IMG/VR virus record: IMGVR_UViG_3300023074_000001
Location: 1 to 64,000 of that record
DNA: 64,000 bases
Source: a virus
Direction: 5' to 3' (one strand)
Within the stretch, counting starts at the first letter, position 1, and every line of letters begins with the position of its first letter. The position numbers and the translations under genes are program-made. Below the pieces are notes generated by a model. That model searched no databases. It had not been told where the DNA came from and saw only the letters and a program-made list of their open reading frames with translations. Of this stretch, positions 20,184 to 47,561 are shown piece by piece.

Positions 20184-20257
20184 GGTGTTGTGGCCTAGTT
20201 GGTTAAGGCATCAGATTGTCAATCTGAAGATCGCGGGTTCGAGTCCCGTCAGCACCG
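20184..20257 (+). tRNA. tRNA-Asp(GTC)
   Basis: Acceptor GGTGTTG/CAGCACC, D-stem GCCT/AGGC, anticodon arm TCAGA TTGTCAA TCTGA and T-arm GCGGG TTCGAGT CCCGT all pair. Discriminator G, then one C, then ATG of the next ORF. Confidence 0.95.
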
Positions 20258-20258
20258 C

Positions 20259-20345
20259 ATGGTTTTAATTTTGAAGGCAATTAAAAGAATTTGCACAAAC
20301 TGTGAGGGTACAGGATGTCCCCCTGTAGTTATAAGGGGTACATAG
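20259..20345 (+). CDS. CxxC microprotein directly after tRNA-Asp
   Basis: This 28-residue ORF has CTNCEGTGCPP, a single zinc-knuckle-like cluster. Its ATG follows the tRNA discriminator and one C with no ribosome site, so tRNA 3' processing would leave a leaderless message. Very short; coding status rests on this recurring context. Confidence 0.45.
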   Translation: MVLILKAIKRICTNCEGTGCPPVVIRGT

Positions 20346-20352
20346 TTATCTA

Positions 20353-20439
20353 ATGCCAGCTATTACGTGTCTATGGTGTAACGGTAAACAGGGTGGTTGC
20401 TACAAATGCAACTGGACCGGATTGATTTGGATATAATTT
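20353..20439 (+). CDS. CxxC microprotein
   Basis: This 27-residue ORF has CLWCNGKQGGCYKCNWTG, a DnaJ-like CxxC-x6-CxxC zinc repeat. It ends just before tRNA-Gly(GCC). No ribosome site is obvious. Confidence 0.45.
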
Positions 20440-20444
20440 AATAT

Positions 20445-20515
20445 GCGATAGTAGCTCAATGGTAGAGCGAAACGTTGCCAACGTTTATACGGGAGTTCGA
20501 TTCTCCTCTATCGCT
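20445..20515 (+). tRNA. tRNA-Gly(GCC)
   Basis: Acceptor GCGATAG/CTATCGC, D-arm GCTC/GAGC, anticodon arm AAACG TTGCCAA CGTTT, T-arm GGGAG TTCGATT CTCCT, discriminator T. Confidence 0.95.
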
Positions 20516-20527
20516 CGGGACGACCAG

Positions 20528-20643
20528 TGAAAAGTACAGGCTGATGCCCTTCTATACTGAAAAGTCTTGAGTAGCTTAAGATGCTCTTGATACTAGCTGT
20601 ATAGTTGGTCGGTGTGTCACTGTCTGGGGACGAAAACTTTTCA
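20528..20643 (+). ncRNA. Closed-stem spacer RNA before tRNA-Gly(TCC)
   Basis: TGAAAAGT (20528-20535) and ACTTTTCA (20636-20643) form an 8-bp closing stem that ends 2 nt before the tRNA. An inner CGACCA/TGGTCG pairing is alternative. No ORF is evident inside. Confidence 0.45.
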
Positions 20644-20645
20644 AT

Positions 20646-20717
20646 GCGGGGTTAGTATAAAAGTAATTATGCGACGCTTCCAACGTTGAGACACCGGGGC
20701 AGTACCGGTACTCCGCT
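20646..20717 (+). tRNA. tRNA-Gly(TCC) with atypical T-loop
   Basis: Acceptor GCGGGGT/ACTCCGC and anticodon arm CGACG CTTCCAA CGTTG are good. The T-stem ACCGG/CCGGT closes a GGCAGTA loop instead of TTCRANN, and the D-arm is weak. Discriminator T, one C, then GTG of the next ORF. Confidence 0.75.
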
Positions 20718-20718
20718 C

Positions 20719-20832
20719 GTGATAAAATATAAGTGTACTATATGTTATGATACTGGCTATGTGTGGAATCAGGCAGAAGGCAAAAGCATTCCGTGTTACC
20801 CAGACATTCATAATAAATATCCAAGTAAATAA
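20719..20832 (+). CDS. Microprotein after tRNA-Gly, GTG start
   Basis: This 37-residue ORF has CTIC and a later Cys. GTG follows tRNA discriminator plus one C. It stops 1 nt before tRNA-Thr. Confidence 0.45.
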   Translation: MIKYKCTICYDTGYVWNQAEGKSIPCYPDIHNKYPSK

Positions 20833-20833
20833 T

Positions 20834-20907
20834 GCCGCCATAGCTCAGAAGGTTAGAGCGTATCCTTGGTACGGATAAGGCGATCGGTTCGATTCCGATT
20901 GGTGGCT
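20834..20907 (+). tRNA. tRNA-Thr(GGT)
   Basis: Acceptor GCCGCCA/TGGTGGC, D-stem GCTC/GAGC, anticodon arm TATCC TTGGTAC GGATA, T-arm ATCGG TTCGATT CCGAT. Discriminator T, one C, then ATG. Confidence 0.95.
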
Positions 20908-20908
20908 C

Positions 20909-21043
20909 ATGGTAGTAAATACGAGTTCATGGATTTGCAGCAAGTGTAAAGCCCTTGGTGATTTTACTATAACTAAGGAGAGCACCTTTACATATTCTGC
21001 AAGGTGCAATTCCTGCGGTAAGTCCAACTGGTTTGCTAAATAA
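20909..21043 (+). CDS. Zinc-ribbon microprotein after tRNA-Thr
   Basis: This 44-residue protein has CSKCKALG and, 25 residues on, CNSCGKSNW: a four-Cys zinc ribbon. The start codon lies 1 nt after the tRNA discriminator. Function unknown; possible nucleic-acid binding is inferred. Confidence 0.6.
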   Translation: MVVNTSSWICSKCKALGDFTITKESTFTYSARCNSCGKSNWFAK

Positions 21044-21122
21044 ATCTCTTCTCATAAGAGAGGCCGAAGATGGTAGATTCAACCTGACACTTTCTTGATT
21101 AACAGTCAAGGAGGTGATATAA

Positions 21123-21239
21123 ATGCCGGGACCGATGTCCGCACCTAACGGTAATAAGAAGCTAGTAACAGATGCTAAGCTTCGAGAAAGCTTGAGAGCC
21201 AAAAGCCAACTCAAGACAGGCAAAACTCAAAGTAAATAA
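21123..21239 (+). CDS. Small basic protein with strong ribosome site
   Basis: This 38-residue Lys-rich ORF is preceded by AAGGAGGTGAT (21108-21118), a near-perfect anti-16S match and the best ribosome site in this region. Function unknown. Confidence 0.6.
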   Translation: MPGPMSAPNGNKKLVTDAKLRESLRAKSQLKTGKTQSK

Positions 21240-21258
21240 GAGCAGAAATGCTCTTTTT

Positions 21259-21336
21259 GCACTATGGTAGTAGGTGGTCCTGCTGCACCTCTGCAAAAGG
21301 TGTTTATACGTTCCGGTCCGATTCCGGCATAGTGCT
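21259..21336 (+). tRNA. tRNA-Cys(GCA)
   Basis: Acceptor GCACTAT/ATAGTGC, D-arm GTAG/CTGC, anticodon arm CACCT CTGCAAA AGGTG. T-arm is 4 bp with TCCGATT loop. A short AAGAGC/GCTCTT hairpin with T run ends at its 5' edge. Discriminator T, one C, ATG follows. Confidence 0.85.
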
Positions 21337-21337
21337 C

Positions 21338-21478
21338 ATGAAGATGAAAAAAACTGTTATTAACGATGTTGTTAAAATGGGTATGGATCAAGAAAAAGAT
21401 TTAGCTAGGCGACTGCCGCAGCTTAGCGAAAAGAAATCTCACAAGTTATCGCCACCAGAAGACGGACACGAAAACTAA
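21338..21478 (+). CDS. Small charged protein after tRNA-Cys
   Basis: This 46-residue protein starts MKMKKTVINDVVK and is Lys/Glu-rich and helical. Its ATG lies 1 nt after the tRNA discriminator without a ribosome site. Confidence 0.55.
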   Translation: MKMKKTVINDVVKMGMDQEKDLARRLPQLSEKKSHKLSPPEDGHEN

Positions 21479-21516
21479 TACCGATTATCCTAACATACTA
21501 ACGTTAGGATAAAGAC

Positions 21517-21882
21517 ATGGCTAAAACTATTCGTGTAGCTGAGGGACCGGTGACGAAAGTAACCGATGGCGATACGTTTGTTGTAGAATACCTCGACTTA
21601 GGTTGGGGTAACAGAGTGTATCCCTTAGATAAAACCAAACCAGGCTACTGTGCTATAAGGATTACTCTACCTGAAAACAAGTGGTACGACGCTCCTGAGA
21701 AAGCTGATAAAGTTCGTTGGAAAGCAGCAACAGATTATTTAAAAACATTGCTGACTCCAGGTACAGAAGTAGTTCTTACTTCTTATGGTTTATTTACTCT
21801 CGGTAGAACCTTGGCGTCTGTGACCTTGCCAGACGGAAGAGATGTTGCTACGCTCATGGTAGAGGCAGGACATACCAAATAA
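21517..21882 (+). CDS. Staphylococcal-nuclease-like (SNase/thermonuclease) protein
   Basis: This 121-residue protein has the SNase-fold order: VTKVTDGDTFVV near 13-24, IRITLPEN and YDAPEKADKVRWKAA near 48-70, and TLGRTLASVTLPDGRDVATLMVEAGHT at the end. Such proteins cleave DNA and RNA in a Ca2+-dependent way or bind nucleic acid. It lies in the tRNA array between tRNA-Cys and an RNA ligase. A TTATCCTAAC/GTTAGGATAA hairpin (21485-21512) sits just upstream, and the ATG has no clear ribosome site. Confidence 0.75.
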   Translation: MAKTIRVAEGPVTKVTDGDTFVVEYLDLGWGNRVYPLDKTKPGYCAIRITLPENKWYDAPEKADKVRWKAATDYLKTLLTPGTEVVLTSYGLFTLGRTLASVTLPDGRDVATLMVEAGHTK

Positions 21883-21955
21883 CAAAGCCAACCTCTGTTA
21901 GGTTTACGACGGTGCGATCTCTGAGCTGGTACACGATGAGGTTTTGTTATTTGGT
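21874..21955 (+). ncRNA. Structured RNA element after the nuclease gene
   Basis: ACCAAATAACAAA (21874-21886), overlapping the nuclease stop, pairs with TTTGTTATTTGGT (21943-21955). An inner AACCTC/GAGGTT extends the stem. About 40 unpaired nt cap it. No ORF inside. Confidence 0.6.
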
Positions 21956-21960
21956 GAGGG

Positions 21961-21996
21961 AAGACCCATGAAAATTCATGGGTCTTCTTCTTGTTT
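21961..21996 (+). terminator. Intrinsic terminator
   Basis: AAGACCCATGA pairs with TCATGGGTCTT around a small A-rich loop, followed by CTTCTTGTTT. It ends the nuclease unit just before a new promoter. Confidence 0.85.
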
Positions 21997-22023
21997 GACA
22001 CCGAGGCTAGTATGTAGTAGGCT
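21995..22023 (+). promoter_or_regulatory. Promoter TTGACA-N17-TAGGCT, leaderless
   Basis: The -35 directly follows the terminator tail. The -10 (22018-22023) is followed by 6 nt and the ATG at 22030, implying a leaderless transcript for the RNA-ligase operon. Confidence 0.75.
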
Positions 22024-22029
22024 CATGGC

Positions 22030-22185
22030 ATGGAAATCATCGTATGGATTATTTTTGGGGTAATCGCTACTATCCTCGTTACTCTCTTTGCGCACTTCGC
22101 TCTAGCACTTTCTTGGCTTGCTGCCTTTATTACAGCCTTGATTTTTGTGGTTGTAGGGGTGTGGGTAGCTAATGAAATTGGATAG
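22030..22185 (+). CDS. Small two-span membrane protein
   Basis: This 51-residue protein is almost wholly hydrophobic, with two predicted membrane segments. It is the first gene of the RNA-ligase operon, read from a leaderless start. Confidence 0.65.
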   Translation: MEIIVWIIFGVIATILVTLFAHFALALSWLAAFITALIFVVVGVWVANEIG

Positions 22186-22186
22186 A

Positions 22187-22345
22187 ATGAGCGATAAGCA
22201 GTTAGCTGATTTTCTTAACCAAACCAAGTATGCTATCTCTCATTATACGTCTATGGAACGAGTCTATCGCCTTAACAAGGAAGCATCGATGGAAGACCTA
22301 GAAGAAATTATTCAAGTCATGAAGCAGAGAAAGGAGAGTAAGTAA
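22187..22345 (+). CDS. Hypothetical helical protein
   Basis: This 52-residue protein starts MSDKQLADFLNQTKY and shares the TAATG junction with the RNA-ligase gene, so translation is probably coupled. Function unknown. Confidence 0.6.
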   Translation: MSDKQLADFLNQTKYAISHYTSMERVYRLNKEASMEDLEEIIQVMKQRKESK

Positions 22346-23004
22346 TGCAAGTTTTTGAATATCATAAAATTCCAGGGCCGTTTAAGCGTGCAACTGAGGG
22401 AGTTAATAAGAACCAGGTCATTGCTTGGCAGTGGTCTAATCCTGAGCTGGAGTATCTAGCAGATGTGCCATGGATTTTTACAGAAAAGATTGATGGAACT
22501 AATATCCGCATCATCTGGGATGGGTATTCTGTCGAGGTACGTGGACGTACTGATCGCGCTAATCTTGCACCTGATCTGGTAAAGACTTTGTTTGCCATGT
22601 TTCCTGAGGAGTTGATGGAGCAGACTTTCGGGGCTAACCCGGCTATTTTGTTTGGTGAAGGCTATGGTCCAGGTATCCAAAAGGGCGGCGGCAACTATCG
22701 TTCAGATAAGAGTTTCATTCTTTTTGATGTGCATATCGGTGGTTGGTGGCTTATGCGAAACTCTGTAGAGGATATCGCTAAGTCTCTAGGAATCGATGTT
22801 GTACCTGTCGGAGCCTCCTGTACGCTTAGGGAAGCTATTAAAGATATGGCAGCTTTAGACTTCATTGACTCTATGGTTGCTGAGACTCCTATGAACATTG
22901 AAGGTATGGTAGGTACTCCTAAGATTCCCCTGTTCAATCGTAAGGGCGAACGAGTCATCGTGAAACTCAAGGGTTGCGATCTCTACGGACTTGAGGTAGG
23001 CTAA
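22345..23004 (+). CDS. RNA ligase, Rnl2-like nucleotidyltransferase
   Basis: This 219-residue protein has the covalent nucleotidyltransferase motifs: EKIDGTNIRI (motif I with lysine near 48), RGRTDRANL near 67, LFGEGYGPGIQKGG near 103, SFILFDVHIGGWW near 122, NIEGMVG (motif IV) near 186 and RVIVKLKG (motif V) near 208. It is compact compared with T4 Rnl2. It would seal RNA nicks. In an array of tRNA genes, repair of tRNAs cleaved by host defence nucleases is the natural suggestion, but that is inference. Confidence 0.85.
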   Translation: MQVFEYHKIPGPFKRATEGVNKNQVIAWQWSNPELEYLADVPWIFTEKIDGTNIRIIWDGYSVEVRGRTDRANLAPDLVKTLFAMFPEELMEQTFGANPAILFGEGYGPGIQKGGGNYRSDKSFILFDVHIGGWWLMRNSVEDIAKSLGIDVVPVGASCTLREAIKDMAALDFIDSMVAETPMNIEGMVGTPKIPLFNRKGERVIVKLKGCDLYGLEVG

Positions 23005-23008
23005 GCAC

Positions 23009-23251
23009 ATGGACGTACTAGAGGACATCTTTTTTTCTATTTTCATTGCTGCTCTTGCGGCTGGGCTTTTGGTAGGTGTGGCGCAGCTCTTTGAGGCGAC
23101 CGACCATAATACTTGCCACGAGCGTGGAGAACTTGCTAATGTGCAGGTAACCTATCGTAAGTGGAAGGGTTGCTATGTTAACCAGAATAACCTTTGGGTT
23201 CCTTATGACAACTGGAAGTACAACCGAGACCATGGGTTTGTGCAGAAATGA
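23009..23251 (+). CDS. Membrane-anchored protein with paired cysteines
   Basis: This 80-residue protein has one N-terminal membrane span, then NTCHERGELANVQVTYRKWKG with a second Cys. The Cys...Cys spacing recurs in the next gene and at 23.6 kb, suggesting related exported domains. Confidence 0.65.
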   Translation: MDVLEDIFFSIFIAALAAGLLVGVAQLFEATDHNTCHERGELANVQVTYRKWKGCYVNQNNLWVPYDNWKYNRDHGFVQK

Positions 23252-23448
23252 TGGATGAAAGAATCTTTCTAAGTCTAGTACTGTTTCTAGCAGTAGTATG
23301 TGTTATTGCTGCTTTCGTCCTTCTCGACAATCAGCAAAAGCAGTTTGCAGACTCTTGCCACGCAAGGGGCGGCGCCGTACAGCACATCTATCGTAACGCT
23401 AACTGTGTCAGTACTGATGGTAAGCTGCTTGACACCTTCAGCAAGTAG
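23248..23448 (+). CDS. Membrane-anchored protein, paralogue of neighbour
   Basis: This 66-residue protein has an N-terminal membrane span then DSCHARGGAVQHIYRNANCV, matching the SC/TCH-x-RG-...-C pattern of the upstream protein. Overlaps it by 4 nt. Confidence 0.65.
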   Translation: MMDERIFLSLVLFLAVVCVIAAFVLLDNQQKQFADSCHARGGAVQHIYRNANCVSTDGKLLDTFSK

Positions 23449-23463
23449 TGTTAGGCTTCCTAC

Positions 23464-23634
23464 ATGACACGAGATGAGGCGCTAAGAGCAGCTGAGAATT
23501 GTTTGAACTATGTAACAACTGTTAGGTTGCCATCACATGATCATGAAGCTGGCAAGGCAATTGCCTTGATGGCTCAAGCTAAGGCCGAAGCAGCTAAAGC
23601 ATATATCGAACTAGCCAAGTTGCTTAGCTACTAA
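23464..23634 (+). CDS. Hypothetical Ala-rich helical protein
   Basis: This 56-residue protein is rich in Ala, Lys and Glu in its C-terminal helix (ALMAQAKAEAAKAYIELAK). Function unknown. Confidence 0.55.
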   Translation: MTRDEALRAAENCLNYVTTVRLPSHDHEAGKAIALMAQAKAEAAKAYIELAKLLSY

Positions 23635-23644
23635 GGAGAGCACT

Positions 23645-23824
23645 ATGAAGTTTGTTGTGGCTTGGGTGTTGTCGGCGCTATTTTTTCTAGCAATGTTTAA
23701 TTGGTATAGCACTAACAGCGATAAGTTTAATGAACGTTGCAGGCAGTATCAGGGTCATGTAGAGTCTAGTTTTATGAAGTACTCATGCGTTGATGCAGCA
23801 AATCAAGTGATCTTCGGCACTTGA
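23645..23824 (+). CDS. Membrane-anchored protein, third paralogue
   Basis: This 59-residue protein has a membrane span, then NERCRQYQGHVESSFMKYSCV, again a Cys pair about 17 residues apart as in the genes at 23.0 and 23.2 kb. SD AGGAG precedes. Its stop overlaps TTGACA. Confidence 0.65.
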   Translation: MKFVVAWVLSALFFLAMFNWYSTNSDKFNERCRQYQGHVESSFMKYSCVDAANQVIFGT

Positions 23825-23849
23825 CAAGCTAGCTGCGACGATGTAAAGT
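23821..23849 (+). promoter_or_regulatory. Promoter TTGACA-N17-TAAAGT
   Basis: -10 at 23844-23849. The predicted start near 23856 matches the beginning of the closing stem of the leader before tRNA-Ala. Confidence 0.75.
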
Positions 23850-23853
23850 AGAA

Positions 23854-24857: not shown

Positions 24858-24929
24858 GCGCCGTTAGCTGAGATGGTTTAGCTGGGGACTTTTAATCCTT
24901 AGACGCGGGTTCGAGTCCTGCACGGCGTA
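24858..24929 (+). tRNA. tRNA-Lys(TTT)
   Basis: Acceptor GCGCCGT/ACGGCGT, D-stem AGCT/AGCT, anticodon arm GGGGA CTTTTAA TCCTT, T-arm GCGGG TTCGAGT CCTGC. Discriminator A, one C, then ATG. Confidence 0.9.
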
Positions 24930-24930: not shown

Positions 24931-25104
24931 ATGTCTAAAGATAAAGATAACAAACGAAATCAATCTAGCGAGAAGCTTCCAGAGTTCGATGCTAAACTTG
25001 ATCGAAGGTGGACCAAAGGAGCTAAGGGTGCAGCCCGAGGCAAGACTGATTCTACTAACGATACTGATTTTGGTAAAATTAATAACTCCCATAAGACGCG
25101 TTGA
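24931..25104 (+). CDS. Small charged protein after tRNA-Lys
   Basis: This 57-residue hydrophilic protein starts MSKDKDNKRNQSSEK. The start codon is 1 nt after the tRNA discriminator with no ribosome site. Function unknown. Confidence 0.6.
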   Translation: MSKDKDNKRNQSSEKLPEFDAKLDRRWTKGAKGAARGKTDSTNDTDFGKINNSHKTR

Positions 25105-25383: not shown

Positions 25384-25538
25384 CGTTTGGTTGTGAGTTT
25401 GCCTTTCGTCGGGAAGACGAAACGGAACTCTCGTACGATCAGGTCAGCCTAATGTGCCAGCATTAGGTGTAAGCGCTAGGGAACACCTAGTTAGCTTGGG
25501 TCATTCGTAATGGTAAAAGCAGGGCTGGCACCCTGTTA
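25384..25538 (+). other. Non-coding spacer with tRNA 5'-half-like segment
   Basis: CCTAATG/CATTAGG and AGGTGT/ACACCT hairpins overlap. From about 25497 a GGGTCATTCGTAATGG run followed by CAGGG CTGGCA CCCTG looks like the 5' half of a tRNA without a T-arm. No ORF. Confidence 0.35.
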
Positions 25539-25607
25539 GTGTTGAGTAGCATTTGGATAATGCGCCTCCAGTTACGGGGGAGATACGGTTCAATTCCGCT
25601 CAATGCA
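25539..25607 (+). tRNA. tRNA-like, anticodon uncertain
   Basis: Acceptor GTGTTGA/TCAATGC and D-arm GCAT TTGGATA ATGC pair well; the T-arm is CGG TTCAATT CCG. The anticodon arm fits CTCCA GTTACGG GGGAG (TAC) or CCTCC AGTTACG GGGGA; neither is clean. Confidence 0.45.
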
Positions 25608-25878: not shown

Positions 25879-25882
25879 CATT

Positions 25883-26062
25883 ATGGTGGCAAAACGAAAA
25901 ACAACTACGACTGTTACTCTCAAGAAGGGTAACAAGACTCTCACAGCAAAGAGAGAAACAACAACAGAATATGACAGGAAGAGTAAGACCTGGAAGCAGA
26001 GTCAACACGATACTCTCATCAAAACTGAAGTGAAACCTTATTCTCCTAAACTTAGTAGGTAA
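25883..26062 (+). CDS. Small basic Thr-rich protein
   Basis: This 59-residue protein starts MVAKRKTTTTVTLKKGNKT. ATG lies 4 nt after the tRNA discriminator, and the frame upstream runs only through the tRNA. Function unknown. Confidence 0.6.
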   Translation: MVAKRKTTTTVTLKKGNKTLTAKRETTTEYDRKSKTWKQSQHDTLIKTEVKPYSPKLSR

Positions 26063-28953: not shown

Positions 28954-29024
28954 GGCGAATTAGTTCAACGGTAGAACGGCAGACTCATATCCTGTTAACA
29001 AGGGTTCGACTCCCTTATTCGCTA
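28954..29024 (+). tRNA. tRNA-Met(CAT)
   Basis: Acceptor GGCGAAT/ATTCGCT, D-stem GTTC/GAAC, anticodon arm GCAGA CTCATAT CCTGT with an A-C closing mismatch, T-arm AAGGG TTCGACT CCCTT. A CAT anticodon could also be Ile after lysidine modification. Discriminator A, one C, ATG. Confidence 0.85.
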
Positions 29025-29953: not shown

Positions 29954-30516
29954 AATTATCTCCTCATGAAGTTGCTTTCCTTGTTATCAATGCAGGGTTT
30001 AGCAAGACTACTATAGTGCCAGGAACTAATGATTCTGAGGCTGTAGTTGCTGTGGCAGTAGCGTTTGCTGAGTCTAGTGCTGATACAGAAAGTATTTCTC
30101 GTACTACTGCCGCTATTACTAGTGAACCAGCTAGCGTAGGGCAGCGAGATCATGGTATCTTTCAGCTCTCAGGACGTTGGCAATACCCTAAGATTCAAAA
30201 AGCTGGTGGGCGTTGGCGTGATCCTGCGACTAACGTAGCTATTGCTTATGAAATTTTTAGGACCAACGGTAGGACTTTTACACCTTGGTCTGTTTTTGAG
30301 AAAAACGCAGCAACAGGTGTGGCACCTTACGAGCAGTATCTTCCTGATGCTAGGATGGGTGTAGCTCAGCCTTGGCCTTATGTTGATGAGATGCAACTGG
30401 CTATGAAAAACTTGCAGACATCGCTTGACACAGCAGTAACGAGTATGACAAAATTGACTACAACAGTAAATGAGATGACTACTAAGCTCGCTGAAGTAAG
30501 AAGTCACTTCAAGTAA
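29950..30516 (+). CDS. Lysozyme/transglycosylase-like protein
   Basis: This 188-residue protein resembles the lysozyme-like fold of soluble transglycosylases: FAESSADTES with a candidate Glu near 40, DHGIFQLSGRWQYPK near 68-82, NVAIAYEIF near 95 and FTPWSVF near 110. The C-terminal 50 residues form a coiled coil. No signal peptide. It may act in lysis or virion entry; uncertain. Confidence 0.65.
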   Translation: MKLSPHEVAFLVINAGFSKTTIVPGTNDSEAVVAVAVAFAESSADTESISRTTAAITSEPASVGQRDHGIFQLSGRWQYPKIQKAGGRWRDPATNVAIAYEIFRTNGRTFTPWSVFEKNAATGVAPYEQYLPDARMGVAQPWPYVDEMQLAMKNLQTSLDTAVTSMTKLTTTVNEMTTKLAEVRSHFK

Positions 30517-30808: not shown

Positions 30809-30882
30809 GGCTCTGTATTCCAATTGGTAGAGAACTCAGGCTTAGACCCTGAACAGTGTCAGTTCGAATCTGACCAGAGTCA
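30809..30882 (+). tRNA. tRNA-Leu(TAG) with short variable loop
   Basis: Acceptor GGCTCTG/CAGAGTC, anticodon arm TCAGG CTTAGAC CCTGA, T-arm GTCAG TTCGAAT CTGAC. Variable loop is only ACAGT. An AGAGTC/GACTCT hairpin (30789-30804) ends 4 nt upstream. Discriminator A, one C, ATG. Confidence 0.85.
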
Positions 30883-31236: not shown

Positions 31237-31243
31237 GTAAGAC

Positions 31244-31428
31244 TTCTTGGTGGTAGCTGAGCAAACAAGTCAGCGGCACAGAAGCACACAGTACGTTGCC
31301 AACTTCCGGCAGAGGCCGGTCCTGATTACCAGGATAGCCAAGCGTAGGTTACTATCGATTGTGTGATGGAGTGCGACTTAACTACGTGAAAGAGGAATGC
31401 GCGCCTCTTGACTCGTCAGCACCAAGAA
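31244..31428 (+). ncRNA. 185-nt closed structured RNA before tRNA-Leu(TAA)
   Basis: TTCTTGGTG (31244-31252) and CACCAAGAA (31420-31428) form a 9-bp closing stem ending 4 nt before the tRNA. The inside lacks an ORF and has several local hairpins, including CCGGCAGAGGCCGG. Confidence 0.5.
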
Positions 31429-31432
31429 TTAA

Positions 31433-31832: not shown

Positions 31833-31857
31833 CATTATGACAAACAAAGGAAGCACT

Positions 31858-32310
31858 ATGACTAATGTAACACGTGTCGGCATTGGTGTCGCACTTCTTC
31901 GGGTATCTGATAAACATATTACTGAAGTTCTTCTTGGAGAACGTAAGGGTTCTCATGGTGCAGGCGAAATGGCCCTACCAGGTGGACACCTAGAGTATGG
32001 TGAAAGTTTCCACGATACTGCTGTTCGTGAGCTTATCGAGGAGCTTGGTCCTGATGTCAAGTTCACCAAGCCTCAGGTTACTTCTGTTATTAACTTGACA
32101 GATTACATGCCTAAGCATTATGTTGACATCGGTATGGTTGCTTCCTACATCGAGGGTGAGCCGCGAGTGATGGAGCCTGACAAGTGTGAAAGTTGGCAGT
32201 GGGTTTCTGTGGATGAGGTTCTTTATGGTAATGTAAAGGTATTCGCTACGGTACCTCGAATCCTTGAGTCCTGGTATAGTATTGGAAGAATTTCTGTTTA
32301 TGACTCTTGA
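31858..32310 (+). CDS. Nudix hydrolase
   Basis: This 150-residue protein has a complete Nudix box GGHLEYGESFHDTAVRELIE continuing ELG near residues 44-66, flanked by beta strands. It resembles MutT/NUDT15-like housecleaning enzymes. Start 31858 uses AAAGGA; an ATG at 31837 lies only 4 nt after tRNA-Leu. It could sanitise nucleotides or process RNA 5' ends. Confidence 0.88.
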   Translation: MTNVTRVGIGVALLRVSDKHITEVLLGERKGSHGAGEMALPGGHLEYGESFHDTAVRELIEELGPDVKFTKPQVTSVINLTDYMPKHYVDIGMVASYIEGEPRVMEPDKCESWQWVSVDEVLYGNVKVFATVPRILESWYSIGRISVYDS

Positions 32311-33029: not shown

Positions 33030-33181
33030 CAAGCAGTGAGTCGAACAGAAAACGATTATCTTACTATTATCAGGAAACTGCTGGGTTCAACTCCCAGGAC
33101 ATCCACGAGGGTGTTGCAGGCTTGCCTTAAACTCGTCTTCTACCCTTTATATTCACTACTTACTTTCATGGAGGCTTTAAC
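33030..33181 (+). other. Spacer with tRNA 3'-end-like remnant
   Basis: CTGGG TTCAACT CCCAG near 33080-33098 is a perfect T-arm followed by GACATCCA, but no 5' partner for the acceptor is visible. Otherwise non-coding. Confidence 0.35.
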
Positions 33182-33379: not shown

Positions 33380-33514
33380 ATGGCAGACAACAAAGAAACA
33401 CGTGCAAAAGTAAGTAAAGCAGCTAATAGCTTAACACGAGCTAAAGAAGCTAAGCTAGATCAATCTGATGCTCGTGAAAAGCTTAGAAAAGCTATTGCTG
33501 AGTACGACAAGTAA
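33380..33514 (+). CDS. Small Lys/Ala-rich helical protein
   Basis: This 44-residue protein starts MADNKETRAKVSKAAN and resembles its upstream neighbour in composition. Function unknown. Confidence 0.55.
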   Translation: MADNKETRAKVSKAANSLTRAKEAKLDQSDAREKLRKAIAEYDK

Positions 33515-33517
33515 TAC

Positions 33518-33641
33518 TTATTGGCGAGTCGTAGTTGAATGGTTAACAGTCCAAACCGCTTGCGTGGGTTCGATTCCCACTTCGTAGTTTAATGGCAGAA
33601 CAGCGGTCATCTTCCGTTTAACGATCCTATATTCGCCAATC
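33518..33641 (+). other. Nested tRNA-like element upstream of ro60
   Basis: ATTGGCGA near 33519 and TCGCCAAT near 33634 are exact complements. Inside are a first D-arm-like GTTGAATGGTTAAC, a perfect T-arm GTGGG TTCGATT CCCAC, and then a second D-arm-like GTTTAATGGCAGAAC and CGG TCATCTT CCG arm without a T-arm. It looks like two merged or rearranged tRNAs. Confidence 0.4.
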
Positions 33642-33643: not shown

Positions 33644-33729
33644 GCTCTTGCTAGGGACCAACGAAGTCGCGTTCGTTGAGCGTAGACCGGCGGGTTTATG
33701 ATGGGAAGGTTCGAATCCTTCCAAGGGCA
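33644..33729 (+). tRNA. tRNA-like, no D-arm, extra hairpin in variable region
   Basis: Acceptor GCTCTTG/CAAGGGC and T-arm GAAGG TTCGAAT CCTTC are complete, and CCA is encoded after the discriminator A. An 8-nt linker leads to CAACGAA/TTCGTTG with a 6-nt loop GTCGCG, then a TAGACC/GGTTTA hairpin. No anticodon is assigned. Confidence 0.45.
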
Positions 33730-33779
33730 CCATTCGTAATATTCAATTTTCATTGAGTCGAAAGAGAGGCTATAAGCCC

Positions 33780-35381
33780 ATGTCAGCACTAAAGAAGTAT
33801 TCAACTAATTCATTCTCCCAGACTGAGAAGGCTCGTACCGATCAGGTGCAGAACTCAGCCGGTGGCTATGTTTTCAAGGTAAACGATCTCAAGCGTCTTG
33901 AGCGATTCCTTATCATCGGAACTGATGGTGGAACCTACTATGTCGGTGAGCGCGACCTTACTAAGGCTAACGTTGATTTTATTCGTGAGATGATTGCTAA
34001 GTCTCCTGAGACTGTTCTACACACCGTTGTAGATGTTTCAGATAAGGGTCGTGCATATCGTAACGACGCAGCTATCTTTGTGCTTGCGCTTATGCTTAAC
34101 GATGCTCCTGCTGATTTCAAGGCTCAGATAGTTGAGGCTGTACCGGCTGTTGCTCGTATCGCTACTCACGTATTTCAGCTTGCTGCTTACATCGAGAACC
34201 TTGGTGGTTGGGGCCGTGCAAAGCGTCGTGCTATTGCTAAGTGGTTTGAGTCAAAGTCAGCGGATCAGCTTGCATACCAGGCTGTAAAGTACCGTCAGCG
34301 TGATGGTTGGACCATGAAGGATCTTATGCGTCTGAGCCACGTTAAGGGTGTAGATGAGCGTGTAGGCGGGTTCATTCTTGGTCGTGAGACTAACCCTGGT
34401 GGGGACATCATTGATGGTTTCCAGACCATGCAGCTTGCGCTTTCGCCTTCTGAGGTAATTTCTACTCTTGGGCGTTACCCTAATCTGCCTTGGGAGACTA
34501 TTCCTACTCAGTTCCTCAAGGATGCTGAGGTTTGGAAGACTCTATTTGCGAATGGTCAGCTTAAGGGGCAGGCTCTAGTACGTAACATCACTAGGCTTTC
34601 GCGTATTGGCGCATTCAACGATATGGTATTCGCTCGTGAGGTAGCTGACAAGCTTGTTGATTCTGACATGATTGCGAAGACTCGTCTTCACCCAATCCAG
34701 TATCTTCTGGCTTCTGTTACTCACCGTACGGGGCAGATGGATCGTAATGGTTATGGTAGTTTCTATGGTGCAGCTCGTAAGCGTGACTGGGAGATCGTTC
34801 CAGTAATTGCTGATGCGCTGGATGCAGGATTCTACCAGTCATTTAAGTCTATCGTTCCGGCAAACAAGCGTACTATGCTTGGCCTGGATATTTCAGGTTC
34901 TATGGCCGCTACTGCTCTAGGAATTGATTTGAGCTGTGCTCAGGTTTCTGCTGCTATGGCTATGGTCACAGCTCGTACTGAGCCATACACCATGATTCGT
35001 GGATTCTCTACGCAGTTCAAGGATCTAGGCATTACTCCTAATCAGGATTTTGCTACAGTTATGAGTAAGATTAGTAACCAGAACTTTGGTGGTACTGACT
35101 GCGCACAACCTATGATTTGGGCAATGGAGAACAAGGTTGAAGTTGATACCTTTGCTGTCTTTACCGACTCAGAAACTTGGGCTGGTAGGACGCAGCCATT
35201 CCAAGCATTGAAGCGATACCATCAGAAGATGGGTATTGATGCTAAGCTGGCAGTTTTCGGTGTTGCTAGCACGGAGTTCACTATTGCAGATCCTAGTGAT
35301 TCTGCGGGAATGATGGACTTCTGCGGTTTTGATTCCAACGCAGCTAGTGTGTTTGCTGACTTCTCAGCAGGTCGTCTGTAA
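33780..35381 (+). CDS. Ro60/TROVE-domain RNA-binding protein
   Basis: This 533-residue protein has an N-terminal TROVE module of HEAT-like helices (NSAGGYVFKVNDLKRLERFL, LGGWGRAKRRAIAKWF, YRQRDGWTMKDLMRLSH) and a C-terminal vWA domain with MIDAS motif DISGSMA near 370, plus GGTDCAQPM and FTDSETW. Ro60 proteins bind misfolded RNA in the ring cavity and Y RNAs, which in bacteria contain tRNA-like folds. Phage homologues are known from actinophages. It follows two aberrant tRNA-like elements. Start 33780 chosen over 33753. Confidence 0.92.
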   Translation: MSALKKYSTNSFSQTEKARTDQVQNSAGGYVFKVNDLKRLERFLIIGTDGGTYYVGERDLTKANVDFIREMIAKSPETVLHTVVDVSDKGRAYRNDAAIFVLALMLNDAPADFKAQIVEAVPAVARIATHVFQLAAYIENLGGWGRAKRRAIAKWFESKSADQLAYQAVKYRQRDGWTMKDLMRLSHVKGVDERVGGFILGRETNPGGDIIDGFQTMQLALSPSEVISTLGRYPNLPWETIPTQFLKDAEVWKTLFANGQLKGQALVRNITRLSRIGAFNDMVFAREVADKLVDSDMIAKTRLHPIQYLLASVTHRTGQMDRNGYGSFYGAARKRDWEIVPVIADALDAGFYQSFKSIVPANKRTMLGLDISGSMAATALGIDLSCAQVSAAMAMVTARTEPYTMIRGFSTQFKDLGITPNQDFATVMSKISNQNFGGTDCAQPMIWAMENKVEVDTFAVFTDSETWAGRTQPFQALKRYHQKMGIDAKLAVFGVASTEFTIADPSDSAGMMDFCGFDSNAASVFADFSAGRL

Positions 35382-36148: not shown

Positions 36149-36382
36149 ATGTCTACTCAAGTACTAGAGAGGCCAGTAGAAACATCAGATTTTAATAAGT
36201 TTTGTCATGTGGTTTGTGCGTGCAGTCCTAAGCTTTCATTGTGCGGGGCATACAAGCCAATACAATGTGGCCTGGCTATTGTTGATAGCAGAGCCATAAA
36301 AACTTGTCCTAAGTGCAAGAAAGATTTCTGTCAGGATTGCATAGATCTTTTGCCATACGAATGTGTACGCTGTGGTCGCTAG
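36149..36382 (+). CDS. Zinc-binding protein
   Basis: This 77-residue protein has CHVVCACSPKLSLCG and TCPKCKKDFCQDCIDLLPYECVRCG, a RING/zinc-ribbon-like series of Cys pairs. A weak GGAG lies upstream. Function unknown. Confidence 0.65.
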   Translation: MSTQVLERPVETSDFNKFCHVVCACSPKLSLCGAYKPIQCGLAIVDSRAIKTCPKCKKDFCQDCIDLLPYECVRCGR

Positions 36383-37341: not shown

Positions 37342-37405
37342 GGGTATCCGCGATCGGCAGGGCACCGGTAAAACGTCCTGGCAGGTTTGACACCTGCAAT
37401 ATCCA
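37342..37405 (+). tRNA. Truncated tRNA-like gene, anticodon unassigned
   Basis: Acceptor GGGTAT/ATATCC and T-arm GCAGG TTTGACA CCTGC are present. Only 32 nt lie between them (about 41 expected). CAGGG/TCCTG could close a 13-nt loop containing CCGGTAAAA. Confidence 0.4.
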
Positions 37406-37457
37406 CTTTATCAGAATGATCAACTGATGAATGCACTAGGCTTAATTACCCTAGTGA

Positions 37458-37574
37458 GCAACGTAGTTTAAAGGAAAAACAGAGAAACCTTAGTAGGGAA
37501 ACAAGTAGGCATTGCGCTGAACGAAGTAGCCGAACAGTAAGTATTAGATGGTAGGGTCGAGTCTACCCGTTGCG
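37458..37574 (+). tRNA. tRNA-like gene with long insertion, anticodon unassigned
   Basis: Acceptor GCAACG/CGTTGC, D-arm GTTT AAAGGAA AAAC and T-stem GGTAG/CTACC (8-nt loop GGTCGAGT) are present. About 69 nt separate D-arm and T-arm, roughly 40 more than normal. Discriminator G, one C, then ATG, as in intact tRNAs here. Confidence 0.5.
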
Positions 37575-37575: not shown

Positions 37576-37698
37576 ATGGCAGATAGAGTTTGTGATTCTT
37601 GTGACTGGGGTCAGTGCTTACAGTGTCGTAAGGGTAGCTGTCGATGTAAAAATTGTGGTGGAGGTCGTCCGTCGCTGGACCCCCGTAGACGCCGATAA
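37576..37698 (+). CDS. Cys-rich zinc microprotein after a tRNA-like gene
   Basis: This 40-residue protein has CDSCDWGQCLQCRKGSCRCK and NCGGG, then an Arg-rich end. ATG is 1 nt after the tRNA-like discriminator, without a ribosome site. Confidence 0.6.
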   Translation: MADRVCDSCDWGQCLQCRKGSCRCKNCGGGRPSLDPRRRR

Positions 37699-44574: not shown

Positions 44575-44621
44575 GGTAGTGCTCATGACGGCACAAAGTC
44601 GTCTTAACGAAAGGGTTTTCT

Positions 44622-44861
44622 ATGAAGTCTGCTAAGTTTGTTGCGGTAGCAGTTGCTGCTGTGTTAAGTTTTGGTAGTATGGTCGCCTGTGGTTCTGGAA
44701 ATTCAGAGCCTGTTGACGCCAATATTGATACTGGTGTAGTGATTGACAAGTCCAGTAAGCGTGTTACTATTCTTGAAGACGACGGCGAGCGAGACACCCA
44801 CAAGTTCCGAAACTCTAAGAAGTGTCTTGTTGGTCAGCGTTGGCCTGATTGCAAGAAGTAA
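44622..44861 (+). CDS. Small lipoprotein
   Basis: This 79-residue protein has a signal peptide and lipobox MVAC at residue 23, then a short soluble domain with a Cys pair (KCLVGQRWPDC). AAAGGG precedes. It may modify the host surface. Confidence 0.7.
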   Translation: MKSAKFVAVAVAAVLSFGSMVACGSGNSEPVDANIDTGVVIDKSSKRVTILEDDGERDTHKFRNSKKCLVGQRWPDCKK

Positions 44862-45202
44862 TGGCTAAGTCAAAGGAAACAGACAATATCTCTGATGGTT
44901 ATCATACTTTCGGAGAATTATACGATCATCGTCGTGCATTGACACGAGCCTTGATGTTGTCAAATACTAAAATTTCTTGGCGTTCAAGGCACCACCACCC
45001 AGATGATGCGCCTATGTTTGAGGGTGGGTATTTTATCGTAGGAATGCAGTTGCCTACGGGACAAATCAGTTACCACTACAAGCTTACTCACTGGAATGAT
45101 TTTGACGGAGTACACACCATCGAGCACGCCCCTAAGTACGATGGACACACTCCACGAGAAACAGTGACCAGACTACTTGACTGGGTAATCAGAAAGATGT
45201 AG
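44861..45202 (+). CDS. Conserved phage protein with WxxFDGxH/DGHTP motifs
   Basis: This 113-residue protein has HTFGELYDHRRALTRALM, HHHPDDAPMFEGGYFIVGMQ and APKYDGHTPRE, a pattern common in tailed phages and of unknown function. TAATG junction upstream. Confidence 0.7.
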   Translation: MAKSKETDNISDGYHTFGELYDHRRALTRALMLSNTKISWRSRHHHPDDAPMFEGGYFIVGMQLPTGQISYHYKLTHWNDFDGVHTIEHAPKYDGHTPRETVTRLLDWVIRKM

Positions 45203-45235
45203 ACTAGTACTACAGCCAGGGAAACTTGGCTTCAT

Positions 45236-45319
45236 GTGTTAGAGGCAACTGTTGGTTGGTTGCAACGGTCTGTAAAATCGTTCCGCGAGGCGTCGGGGGT
45301 TCAATTCCCTCCTAACACA
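45236..45319 (+). tRNA. tRNA-Tyr(GTA)
   Basis: Class II: acceptor GTGTTAG/CTAACAC, D-stem GCAAC/GTTGC, anticodon arm ACGGT CTGTAAA ATCGT, variable arm CCGC-GAG-GCG, T-arm GGGGG TTCAATT CCCTC. An AGCCA/TGGCT stem ends 4 nt upstream. Confidence 0.93.
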
Positions 45320-45339
45320 CATACATTAACTTAATACAA

Positions 45340-45427
45340 AGGTAGAGTCACTTATAGGGCAGGCTGTTGAGAGAAGCCGGTAATTCCGTAGAGATCCCAG
45401 GAGGGTGTAAGACCTTCGCTCTAACCT
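45340..45427 (+). ncRNA. Structured segment after tRNA-Tyr
   Basis: AGGTAGAG and CTCTAACCT close an 88-nt segment with one bulge. No ORF. Confidence 0.35.
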
Positions 45428-45451
45428 ATTCAAATATTAAGGATTAAACAA

Positions 45452-45592
45452 GTGGCAAAAGTTGGAGATAACATGTCCGCAGCTGAGCGTAAAGCTGCAC
45501 AGGAAAAGGCTAAACCATTACGCAAAGTATCAAAACCTAAAGTAATATATCCAGATAGAGTAGCTAACGCTCAATCTAGAGAAAAGAAGTAA
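45452..45592 (+). CDS. Small Lys/Ala-rich protein
   Basis: This 46-residue protein starts MAKVGDNMSAAERKAAQ from GTG after AAGGA. Function unknown. Confidence 0.55.
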   Translation: MAKVGDNMSAAERKAAQEKAKPLRKVSKPKVIYPDRVANAQSREKK

Positions 45593-45595
45593 GTC

Positions 45596-45623
45596 AAGGC
45601 ACATGGAAACATGTGCCTTTTTC
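45596..45623 (+). terminator. Intrinsic terminator
   Basis: AAGGCACATG GAAA CATGTGCCTT stem with TTTTCATTT tail. Confidence 0.92.
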
Positions 45624-45640
45624 ATTTCAGGAGAGTTATC

Positions 45641-45790
45641 TTGACTAAGAAGGACCCTAACGCAAGTCGCGGTGAAAGGCGTCACTGCCAAAGCCCAACT
45701 TGTGGAAATGTATTTATCGCTAACAACAGCGGGCAGATTTATTGTTCGATCAAGTGTCAACGTGCGGCAGCATATCGAAAAAGGAAGTAA
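45641..45790 (+). CDS. Zinc-binding small protein
   Basis: This 49-residue protein has HCQSPTCGNVF and YCSIKCQRAAAYRKRK, a CxxxxC...CxxxC zinc-finger seen in small phage proteins. TTG start after AGGAGA. Confidence 0.6.
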   Translation: MTKKDPNASRGERRHCQSPTCGNVFIANNSGQIYCSIKCQRAAAYRKRK

Positions 45791-45795
45791 CCCTT

Positions 45796-46035
45796 ATGTT
45801 TTTCTGTGATTTTTGTGCCAATAAAAGAAATTGGCCTGAGAGTATGTCTAAGTCTTATGGAGTTTGTGAAATTTGTGATATAACTGCTAGGTGTAATGAC
45901 GTACCCTCATCAGCTTTACCTATGCCTGCTAAGGTTATTGAACCCGAATATGTAGGAAGGCATCGTAAGATAGAAGATATAGCAGCAGATGTCGTTAAGT
46001 CTCGCAAGGATATGCTTGAAAAACTAAAAGACTAA
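45796..46035 (+). CDS. Zinc-binding protein
   Basis: This 79-residue protein starts MFFCDFCANKRNWPES and has VCEICDITARC, a CxxC...CxxC ribbon, then an acidic C-terminal half. Start 45796 is chosen because the upstream frame overlaps the previous gene. Confidence 0.6.
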   Translation: MFFCDFCANKRNWPESMSKSYGVCEICDITARCNDVPSSALPMPAKVIEPEYVGRHRKIEDIAADVVKSRKDMLEKLKD

Positions 46036-46063
46036 TTATGAAAAAGCAGCTGCGCGAACTTCC

Positions 46064-46093
46064 TTGACACAGCCCCCGGCAGCATGATAGGGT
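46064..46093 (+). promoter_or_regulatory. Promoter TTGACA-N18-TAGGGT
   Basis: -10 at 46088-46093; a 33-nt leader with GAGAGGA leads to the lipoprotein gene. Confidence 0.75.
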
Positions 46094-46132
46094 AGCTGTA
46101 ATAAACAAACACAGAGAGGACGATCGGTACAG

Positions 46133-46585
46133 ATGAACCGACGCATGTATTCGCGCCGTGTTGCACTGACTGGTACATTTCTATTGCTTGCTGCTGGTGG
46201 CATGGCTGCCTGTGATAGCGCAGACGATGACCCGAATGAGGATGGTCACTTTTACTGCTCTGATAGTAACGGTACGGTAATTGATGAAAGCTACTGCGAT
46301 GATTCAGATGGAGGTGGGGGTGGCTATTTCTTCGCTTACATGGGAAGCTCTGTCCACGGTAACACCACTTATCCTGTAGGCTCAAGGCTTCCTGCTGGAC
46401 ATCAGAAGTTCTCCGTCAAGGACACAGCAGCTAGGTCAAGGTTCGGTCTTCCTGCTTCTGGTAGAATCAGCAACGGTACAGTAAAGACTGGTGTTATCGG
46501 CAAGGGTGGACCTGGTTCTACTGCTAAGGTAGGATCTGGAGCTAAGGGTGGAGGTGGCACCGGTGGTAAGTCTGGTGGTGGCTGA
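46133..46585 (+). CDS. Gly-rich lipoprotein
   Basis: This 150-residue protein has a twin-Arg-like start (MNRRMYSRRVALTGTF), lipobox MAAC near residue 27, an acidic Cys-containing segment, and a C-terminal Gly/Lys/Thr low-complexity tail. Own promoter. It probably sits on the outer face of the host membrane. Confidence 0.7.
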   Translation: MNRRMYSRRVALTGTFLLLAAGGMAACDSADDDPNEDGHFYCSDSNGTVIDESYCDDSDGGGGGYFFAYMGSSVHGNTTYPVGSRLPAGHQKFSVKDTAARSRFGLPASGRISNGTVKTGVIGKGGPGSTAKVGSGAKGGGGTGGKSGGG

Positions 46586-46619
46586 GTAAATATGTTAGGG
46601 TGTGCTTGTCACACCACTT

Positions 46620-46695
46620 GCTCCGTAGGCTTGGCTGGTGGCTGGAGGCACGCTTATAACGTGCTTAAAGGTGGGTTCGATTCCCACACGGAGTA
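46620..46695 (+). tRNA. tRNA-Ile(TAT)
   Basis: Acceptor GCTCCGT/ACGGAGT, anticodon arm GCACG CTTATAA CGTGC, T-arm GTGGG TTCGATT CCCAC. D-region is enlarged. GGTGTG/CACACC stem ends 4 nt upstream. Discriminator A, one C, then GTG. Confidence 0.9.
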
Positions 46696-46696
46696 C

Positions 46697-46831
46697 GTGA
46701 ATAAAAATCATGATGTTGAAGACCTGTTTAACGCATTTGTTGGATACATTTTTCTTGTAGGAATAATTTTTGGCATTGTAGTTCTGGCAGTACTCGTACT
46801 AATTATCTGGCTACTCTTCACCCTCGTTTAA
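46697..46831 (+). CDS. Small membrane protein after tRNA-Ile, GTG start
   Basis: This 44-residue protein starts NKNHDVEDLFNAFVGYIF after GTG and has one or two membrane spans. The start codon lies 1 nt after the tRNA discriminator; the frame upstream would read through the tRNA. Confidence 0.6.
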   Translation: MNKNHDVEDLFNAFVGYIFLVGIIFGIVVLAVLVLIIWLLFTLV

Positions 46832-46840
46832 AGGATCATT

Positions 46841-46969
46841 ATGGACAAGGTATTTACCTGGATTTTTAACAACTTCGGTAAGCTTTGGATCGGTGCAGCA
46901 GTACTTGGTCTTGGCATTACTGGAGTAGTTGTTTGGGGATTCATTATGCTCGTTCTGCATTTCACCTGA
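46841..46969 (+). CDS. Small membrane protein
   Basis: This 42-residue protein has a membrane span (IGAAVLGLGITGVVVWGFIM). AAAGGA precedes. Confidence 0.6.
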   Translation: MDKVFTWIFNNFGKLWIGAAVLGLGITGVVVWGFIMLVLHFT

Positions 46970-46979
46970 GGAGTTTATT

Positions 46980-47144
46980 TTGCCAGAAAAGAAAGACCGC
47001 ATTCGTACCAAGAGCGATGAGCTAGGCGTTCAGGTTAAAGGCGCAACCACTAGAAAATTGATCAAGAATCAAAAAGCTGGTACCGCTGATTTTCGAGATG
47101 ACCCTGATCGAGATGGCGGAAATACTCGTACTAGTAGAGGCTGA
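46980..47144 (+). CDS. Small charged protein
   Basis: This 54-residue protein starts from TTG after GAGGAG (PEKKDRIRTKSDELGVQVK). Function unknown. Confidence 0.5.
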   Translation: MPEKKDRIRTKSDELGVQVKGATTRKLIKNQKAGTADFRDDPDRDGGNTRTSRG

Positions 47145-47167
47145 CAATAGCTTTTACCTGGAGAAAC

Positions 47168-47176
47168 TGATATAAT
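47168..47176 (+). promoter_or_regulatory. Possible extended -10 promoter TGATATAAT
   Basis: TGA-TATAAT matches an extended -10, but no TTGACA-like -35 is spaced correctly. It would drive tRNA-Ser(TGA). Confidence 0.4.
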
Positions 47177-47206
47177 TATTTAATGGCCTGCTCACGCAGG
47201 TATCTC

Positions 47207-47296
47207 GGAGAGCACCGCATGAGGTCATGCGACTAGTCTTGAAAACTAGGGTATCGGGTTAGTAGCCGGATAGGGGATCGTTACCTCTGCTCTCCT
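47207..47296 (+). tRNA. tRNA-Ser(TGA)
   Basis: Class II: acceptor GGAGAGC/GCTCTCC, D-arm CGCA TGAGGTCA TGCG, anticodon arm CTAGT CTTGAAA ACTAG, long variable arm, T-stem AGGGG/CCTCT around a non-consensus ATCGTTA loop. Discriminator T, one C, then ATG. Confidence 0.88.
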
Positions 47297-47297
47297 C

Positions 47298-47561
47298 ATG
47301 TCACTAACATTCTTTTCTGTTGAAATCGATCCTGAGCACGAAAATGGCCCTGGCTTACAGATGTGTCAGGCATACGATCATGCTACGGTATTAGCTAGCA
47401 ATGAAGACGTCAACTGTGCTCTCCCTCCAGTAGAGGTTTTGCAAATGCGTATTGGAGAAGATATTACCCTGGCGCAGGCGTTGTGTATCGTGCATCTCAA
47501 TGCATTTAAACTTGGTCTTCGTGACGGTCAAGTACTTTATGATGCAGACTCACTCCAATAA
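47298..47561 (+). CDS. Hypothetical protein after tRNA-Ser
   Basis: This 87-residue acidic protein starts MSLTFFSVEIDPEHENG. The ATG is 1 nt after the tRNA discriminator without a ribosome site. It is a normal-sized gene, which strengthens the punctuation model. Confidence 0.7.
   Translation: MSLTFFSVEIDPEHENGPGLQMCQAYDHATVLASNEDVNCALPPVEVLQMRIGEDITLAQALCIVHLNAFKLGLRDGQVLYDADSLQ

Follow-up and report, generated by a model that had tools for sequence, protein, structure and literature searches.

Phage start codons directly 3' of tRNA position 74 point to leaderless mRNAs released by host tRNA processing

Introduction

Why should open reading frames (ORFs) in the transfer RNA (tRNA) array of a phage begin exactly one C after a tRNA? 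We addressed this question in positions 1-64,000 (the window) of the 135,654-bp IMG/VR record IMGVR_UViG_3300023074_000001, where ten ATG or GTG (RTG) start codons stand in this position. A sequence-only reading of the window had proposed that tRNA maturation turns these ORFs into leaderless messenger RNAs (mRNAs), as tRNA punctuation does in mitochondria. We find the same junction (tRNA, C, RTG) in related phages at frequencies well above expectation, and consider it likely that these phages obtain leaderless mRNAs through host tRNA 3' processing; the signal is read in the DNA, and the RNA step is our inference from it.

Ten start codons that follow a tRNA and one C

Direct inspection gave a discriminator base, a C and then the ATG or GTG of an ORF at every one of the ten starts, and all ten coordinates in the sequence-only reading proved exact. 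Eight starts are ATG and two GTG (20719 and 46697). The features are as follows (C74 is the C after the discriminator; aa, amino acids).

20184..20258, plus strand: tRNA-Asp(GUC), 20184-20257, with C74 at 20258; Rfam 73.9 bits, and context
20259..20345, plus strand: 28-aa ORF, ATG immediately 3' of C74
20646..20718, plus strand: tRNA-Gly (U73), 20646-20717, with C74 at 20718; Rfam 40.7 bits, cloverleaf as minimum-free-energy fold
20719..20832, plus strand: 37-aa ORF, GTG immediately 3' of C74
20834..20908, plus strand: tRNA-Thr(GGU), 20834-20907, with C74; Rfam 63.5 bits
20909..21043, plus strand: 44-aa ORF with two CxxC pairs (weak zinc-ribbon matches only), ATG immediately 3' of C74
21259..21337, plus strand: tRNA-Cys(GCA) (U73), 21259-21336, with C74; by eye and by relaxed ARAGORN
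21338..21478, plus strand: 46-aa ORF, ATG immediately 3' of C74
24858..24930, plus strand: tRNA-Lys(UUU), 24858-24929, with C74; Rfam 59.2 bits
24931..25104, plus strand: 57-aa ORF (RRWTKG protein), ATG immediately 3' of C74
28954..29025, plus strand: tRNA-Met(CAU), 28954-29024, with C74; Rfam 63.9 bits
29026..29247, plus strand: 73-aa ORF, ATG immediately 3' of C74
30809..30883, plus strand: tRNA-Leu(UAG), 30809-30882, with C74; Rfam 53.6 bits
30884..30994, plus strand: 36-aa basic ORF, ATG immediately 3' of C74
37457..37575, plus strand: degenerate or interrupted tRNA-like element (~37457-37574) ending in C; acceptor and T arm in fold
37576..37698, plus strand: 40-aa Cys-rich ORF, ATG immediately 3' of the element's C
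46620..46696, plus strand: tRNA-Ile(UAU), 46620-46695, with C74; ARAGORN, Rfam 31.5 bits
46697..46831, plus strand: 44-aa hydrophobic (membrane-like) ORF, GTG immediately 3' of C74
47206..47297, plus strand: tRNA-Ser(UGA)-like gene, 47206-47296, with C74; relaxed ARAGORN, Ser UGA
47298..47561, plus strand: 87-aa gene, ATG immediately 3' of C74

Six of the upstream tRNAs (Asp, Thr, Lys, Met, Leu and Ile) were detected by ARAGORN and Rfam under default settings. The tRNA-Gly gave no default match and exceeded the cut-off of 29 bits in a local Rfam search, while tRNA-Cys, with a 7-bp acceptor stem and U73 seen by eye, was returned by relaxed ARAGORN only (21250-21337). The Cys and Ser genes are plausible cloverleaves; in the latter, D stem and variable arm are both long, and it scored 42.8 bits against the tRNA-Sec model (cut-off 47). 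Nine of the ten upstream elements look sound, as had been claimed for all of them, but the one before 37576 is only tRNA-like: of the cloverleaf its fold has an acceptor and a T arm alone, and Rfam gave no match.

The 87-residue gene singled out by the sequence-only reading is present and has a homologue in the IMG/VR contig G001, where it adjoins no detected tRNA. By tblastn, the 87-aa and 73-aa proteins had no phage homologue, and searches of Pfam and PHROGs assigned no family to nearly all of the window junction ORFs. The remainder of the record holds further junctions.

tRNA 82768-82839, minus strand: followed by a GTG-started frame of 50 aa
partial tRNA match near 81457, minus strand: followed by an ATG-started frame of 46 aa
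tRNA 89902-89974, minus strand: followed by a GTG-started frame of 21 aa

A related arrangement, C-ATT-ATG, follows two other tRNAs (31833-31839 and 25879-25885), in frame with long ORFs, one coding for a 157-aa NUDIX protein and the other for a protein of 59 aa. Within the NUDIX frame, AAAGGAAG stands before another ATG, at 31858, and this frame may be led by a Shine-Dalgarno site.

Excess of start codons at one offset

RTG-started frames were counted at every offset 3' of 273 ARAGORN tRNAs in eight genomes: the window phage, the IMG/VR contigs G001-G003, and the Streptomyces phages Forrest, Karimac, Samisti12 and Blueeyedbeauty. In the window phage, 8 of 33 tRNAs had RTG at +1, where 1.1 would be expected (binomial P 1e-5), and in the whole set 53 of 273 did (about 10 expected; ATG 38, GTG 15). 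When only frames of at least 20 codons were counted, 51 began at +1, and the remaining offsets between 0 and 39 had 0 to 11 each; offsets 0, 2 and 3 were not raised as offset 1 was. Restricting the count to frames of at least 35 codons left 29 starts at +1 for the 118 tRNAs of the window phage and its three IMG/VR relatives, with a mean of 0.9 at the other offsets; the four Streptomyces phages gave 16 for 155 tRNAs, with a mean of 1.9 elsewhere. Taken genome by genome, P was at most 1e-5 in all four IMG/VR phages; among the Streptomyces phages, Blueeyedbeauty gave 0.15 and the other three gave values between 0.004 and 0.04. Related genomes were where the sequence-only reading had proposed to put itself at risk, and the junction recurs there, in G001-G003 as well as in the four Streptomyces phages. 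By comparison, five other actinophages carry RTG at +1 after only 1 of 150 tRNAs (Fisher P 3e-10), and the Escherichia and Aeromonas phages, whose tRNA genes mostly encode CCA, had no such junctions.

Frames opened by RTG after position 74 have a median length of 54 codons, compared with 19.5 for TTG and 12 for other triplets, and TTG frames at +1 are no longer than background. The junction tRNAs span 16 different isotypes. On the offset profile, the frame lengths and the binomial tests we rejected a chance origin, and we regard the pattern in the sequence as beyond reasonable doubt. The spacing of abutting tRNAs was also considered as evidence for a gene boundary after C74. Its minimum is 1 base and never 0; the counts are small and T5 and T4 have a minimum of 1 too, so that this observation is not decisive.

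The single C is tRNA position 74

The C between discriminator and start codon had been taken for a feature of the junctions. It is instead tRNA position 74, which is encoded in nearly all actinophage and actinobacterial tRNA genes examined. Across the whole record, 39 of the 43 curated tRNA or tRNA-like genes are followed by a C, including those with no ORF behind them, as are 149 of 150 tRNAs of the five other actinophages (phages of Mycobacterium, Microbacterium and Gordonia). The same holds for every tRNA of Streptomyces canus (34/34, CCA encoded in 6), of a Mycolicibacterium (31/31, CCA encoded in 14) and of a Chitinophaga silvisoli genome (L317-L346; 31/31, CCA encoded in none). As C74 is present with and without an ORF and across genomes, the one-C spacing alone is uninformative, and we discarded it as a diagnostic. 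The distinctive part of the junctions is the start codon immediately after C74. Encoding the first C alone may be a wider bacterial habit, hinting at a cut after C74 beyond Actinobacteria.

Junction ORFs as genes

Six pairs of orthologues retain the junction, one of them with a different tRNA upstream.

RRWTKG pair: window, 24931..25104, after tRNA-Lys; G002, after tRNA-Arg
MITLQE pair: G001 and G002, after tRNA-Glu
LNKxTRKAAK pair: G001 and G002, after tRNA-Asp
VPAKIP pair: Karimac and Samisti12, after tRNA-Glu
MxYT pair: Karimac and Samisti12, after tRNA-Leu
MxLRVG pair: Blueeyedbeauty and Forrest, the upstream tRNA-Leu of Forrest being unannotated

In these six pairs the proportion of nonsynonymous differences (pN) is far below that of synonymous ones (pS); synonymous sites are near saturation and the proteins are conserved. 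Where dS could be estimated, dN/dS was 0.14 and 0.30. These substitution patterns indicate that several junction ORFs are under purifying selection. Coding sequences in GenBank likewise start directly 3' of tRNAs at 77614 and 79891 in Forrest and at 85634 and 92617 in Karimac. The unannotated tRNA-Leu of Forrest (L006:30400-30511) lies right before the coding sequence at 30512, its T arm and acceptor ending in C, then ATG.

Orthologues that do not directly follow a tRNA often have a Shine-Dalgarno-like site, as before MITLQE at window position 36149 (GGAG), before a gene of G002 (AAGGA) and before one for a lipoprotein in Karimac. Genes therefore appear to exchange the tRNA junction and the Shine-Dalgarno leader in evolution.

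Proposed tRNA 3' processing and its alternatives

The absence of a ribosome site at the ten starts, as first read from the sequence, held up. The tetramers GGAG, GAGG and AGGA are not enriched upstream of junction starts (5.9% of junction tRNAs, 4.5% of other tRNAs), which disposes of hidden Shine-Dalgarno sites in the tRNA 3' arms, and the GGAG before 46697 is unsuitable, since it forms part of the acceptor stem and leaves too little distance to the GTG.

In the model that we propose, start codons in these phages would be placed where the host cleaves tRNA 3' ends. The tRNAs and the small ORFs would share a polycistronic transcript, and the host endonuclease that removes tRNA trailers would cut it one base past the discriminator, after C74. 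Upstream of the cut this would leave a tRNA ending in N73-C74, to which the CCA-adding enzyme would add C and A, and downstream an mRNA starting with AUG or GUG, presumably with a 5' phosphate. As actinobacterial ribosomes are efficient on leaderless mRNAs of this kind, a Shine-Dalgarno site would be unneeded.

Both the position of the cut and the efficiency of a 5'-RTG end are carried over from other actinobacteria. Of 5'-end maps in actinobacteria we found two. That of Streptomyces coelicolor has the tRNA 3' cut inside encoded CCA, separating C74 from C75, and in Propionibacterium acnes cuts inside encoded CCA always fall between the Cs (PMC3848588). With such a cut, the message would start exactly at 5'-AUG or 5'-GUG. 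In mycobacteria, RTG at the first nucleotide was the only discernible criterion for leaderless initiation, and start-codon requirements differ (Shell et al. 2015); RTG at transcript position 1 is translated better than at positions 2-5 in Mycobacterium tuberculosis. A 5' phosphate has been reported as required for leaderless translation in Escherichia coli (PMC9031893). By this analogy a 5'-RTG end is favoured over 5'-C-RTG. C74, the lack of any further base, the restriction to RTG, and the lack of a Shine-Dalgarno site and of a promoter motif each fit the processing model, and tRNA 3' processing is the only explanation we found that covers all features. As for the earlier proposal that such processing leaves the ORFs leaderless, the exact register and the recurrence in relatives speak for it, but the coupling to tRNA maturation is something we infer.

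Several observations weigh against this reading. Between-C cuts have been published for CCA-encoding tRNAs, and for CCA-less tRNAs the S. coelicolor paper reports only cuts within a few nucleotides downstream. The Streptomyces phages FlowerPower and Frankenweenie and the five other actinophages keep C74 and have no convincing junction excess, and Streptomyces chromosomes, by inspection, have no obvious one.

Since the published maps concern CCA-encoding tRNAs, cleavage by RNase Z directly after the discriminator, which would yield 5'-C-AUG mRNAs with a one-base leader, is kept as a serious rival, though we regard it as unlikely. Canonical bacterial RNase Z does cut just 3' of the discriminator, and S. 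coelicolor has a tRNase Z homologue (SCO2547). However, the actinobacterial end maps put the cut between C74 and C75, RTG away from position 1 is the less well translated form, and the near-universal encoding of C74 would be left unexplained. The 5'-C-AUG end of the sequence-only reading thus disagrees with those maps. Its choice of enzyme is not established either, as P. acnes makes the between-C cut without an obvious tRNase Z homologue.

Much less probable are primary leaderless transcripts that would start at RTG from promoters inside the tRNA genes. Such transcripts are common in actinobacteria, but the −10 motif TANNNT shows no excess in the last 14 bases before RTG (3.9% of junction tRNAs, 4.5% of others), by which we rejected internal promoters, and the same register after 16 isotypes would go unexplained. 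Genome compaction combined with chance or spurious ORFs, the short frames being over-read, is less credible still. Genomes of tRNA-rich phages are compact, and several window ORFs have fewer than 45 codons and no relatives in the databases searched; against this, offset 1 is raised and offsets 0, 2 and 3 are not, other tRNA-packed actinophages have no excess, and the frame lengths, the synonymous saturation with protein conservation and the retained junctions mark real genes. The offset and selection tests largely refute this explanation. Translation of the uncut transcript, with ribosomes binding at the tRNA 3' arm or re-initiating, we can scarcely credit: a tetramer lies at a roughly suitable distance in 3 of 51 junction tRNAs, but such tetramers are at background and belong to the paired regions of the acceptor and T stems.

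Distribution among phages and hosts

Given FlowerPower, Frankenweenie and the five other actinophages, the trait follows phage lineages and not the host alone; FlowerPower, Frankenweenie and the Streptomyces chromosomes leave a host-determined trait unsupported. Microbacterium phage Magritte also keeps C74 with no convincing junction excess.

For a wider IMG/VR sample, contigs were chosen for one tRNA-CATG match, among the matches listed, and their other CCA-less tRNAs were counted. Frames of at least 35 codons began at +1 after 34 of these 590 tRNAs and numbered 2 to 11 at offsets 2-19; the junction excess extends beyond relatives of the window phage. In four related contigs of uncultivated phages (L042, L058, L108 and L116; 37% GC), two small genes keep the tRNA-C-RTG junction, and two larger genes start in the same way.

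L058:4712: N-acetylglucosamine (GlcNAc) glycosyltransferase, 299 aa, start right after tRNA-C
L042:7932: 2OG-Fe(II) oxygenase, 218 aa, start right after tRNA-C

For the two proteins tested, this group had no close relative in the phage collection. We think it probable that RTG at tRNA position 75 represents a widespread, so far unrecognised mode of expression in actinobacterial phages, in which one maturation cut would free a tRNA and a 5'-monophosphate leaderless mRNA and so link tRNA supply to expression of the downstream gene; genes would swap this mode for a Shine-Dalgarno leader, and in uncultivated phages it would reach full-size enzymes.

Relation to known systems

The closest parallel is tRNA punctuation in animal mitochondrial DNA, in which excision of intergenic tRNAs from long transcripts sets the ends of the mRNAs and leaves almost no leader; here the likeness is read from DNA. 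The two differ in that the expected cut falls after C74 rather than after the discriminator, in that most genes and tRNAs here are not involved, many other phage genes having Shine-Dalgarno sites, and in that the enzymes would be those of a bacterial host. Leaderless mRNAs of Streptomyces and Mycobacterium share the 5'-RTG, the lack of a Shine-Dalgarno site and the frequently small ORFs; theirs arise by transcription starting at RTG, whereas the 5' end here would come from processing and carry a monophosphate. In the contested MazF system of E. coli an endonuclease would likewise remove upstream RNA, but MazF is a stress toxin cutting at ACA and the cut proposed here would belong to constitutive tRNA maturation at a structured site. 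MazF-generated leaderless mRNAs were not reproduced by other laboratories (PMC9031893).

Among phages, the Stanwilliamsviridae (Karimac, Samisti12, Forrest and Blueeyedbeauty) combine big tRNA arrays and small genes with a Ro-like protein, C74 and the same junction, which has been annotated without comment. We found no description of such junctions in phages in the literature searched, from which subscription journals and preprints were largely absent. Known parts, namely tRNA punctuation, actinobacterial leaderless translation and a cut between the Cs, are here recombined in an arrangement that we did not find described.

If the processing model is right, one host cut would yield two phage products, a tRNA and a leaderless mRNA, in tied amounts. 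This would be, to our knowledge, the first systematic tRNA punctuation outside organelles, and a natural system for studying how ribosomes use processed (monophosphate) leaderless mRNAs. It would explain why so many small genes are interspersed in the tRNA arrays of phages, offer a rule by which starts overlooked by gene finders and annotators could be called, and point to an actinobacterial endonuclease that cuts tRNAs between C74 and C75.

Genomic setting and minor observations

The whole record contains about 36 Rfam-detectable tRNAs on both strands, along with more divergent ones, and most phage genes do not adjoin a tRNA. The tRNA array surrounds a gene for a Ro-like RNA-binding protein (33780-35378), an arrangement found in many actinophages. 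Its product is 70, 71 and 56% identical to those of G001-G003 and about 58% identical to those of the Stanwilliamsviridae Streptomyces phages. With that family the window phage has the Ro-like gene and the junction in common, whereas its DNA polymerase and its PHROG-assigned processivity factor (sliding-clamp-like) are nearest to those of Magritte. The host is likely an actinobacterium. At the Rfam gathering threshold, the window gave no RNA match besides tRNA, hence no Y RNA candidate for the Ro-like protein.

Irregular, overlapping or interrupted tRNA-like elements occur at 33494-33640, 33644-33735, 37343-37405 and 25500-25607, and a T-arm-like stretch near 33080 has no clear 5' half; these elements may be decaying, interrupted or nested tRNA genes. 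Long gaps between tRNAs (20517-20645, 31237-31432, 33735-33780 and similar), which hold no ORFs or Rfam matches, look structured and may contain further RNAs.

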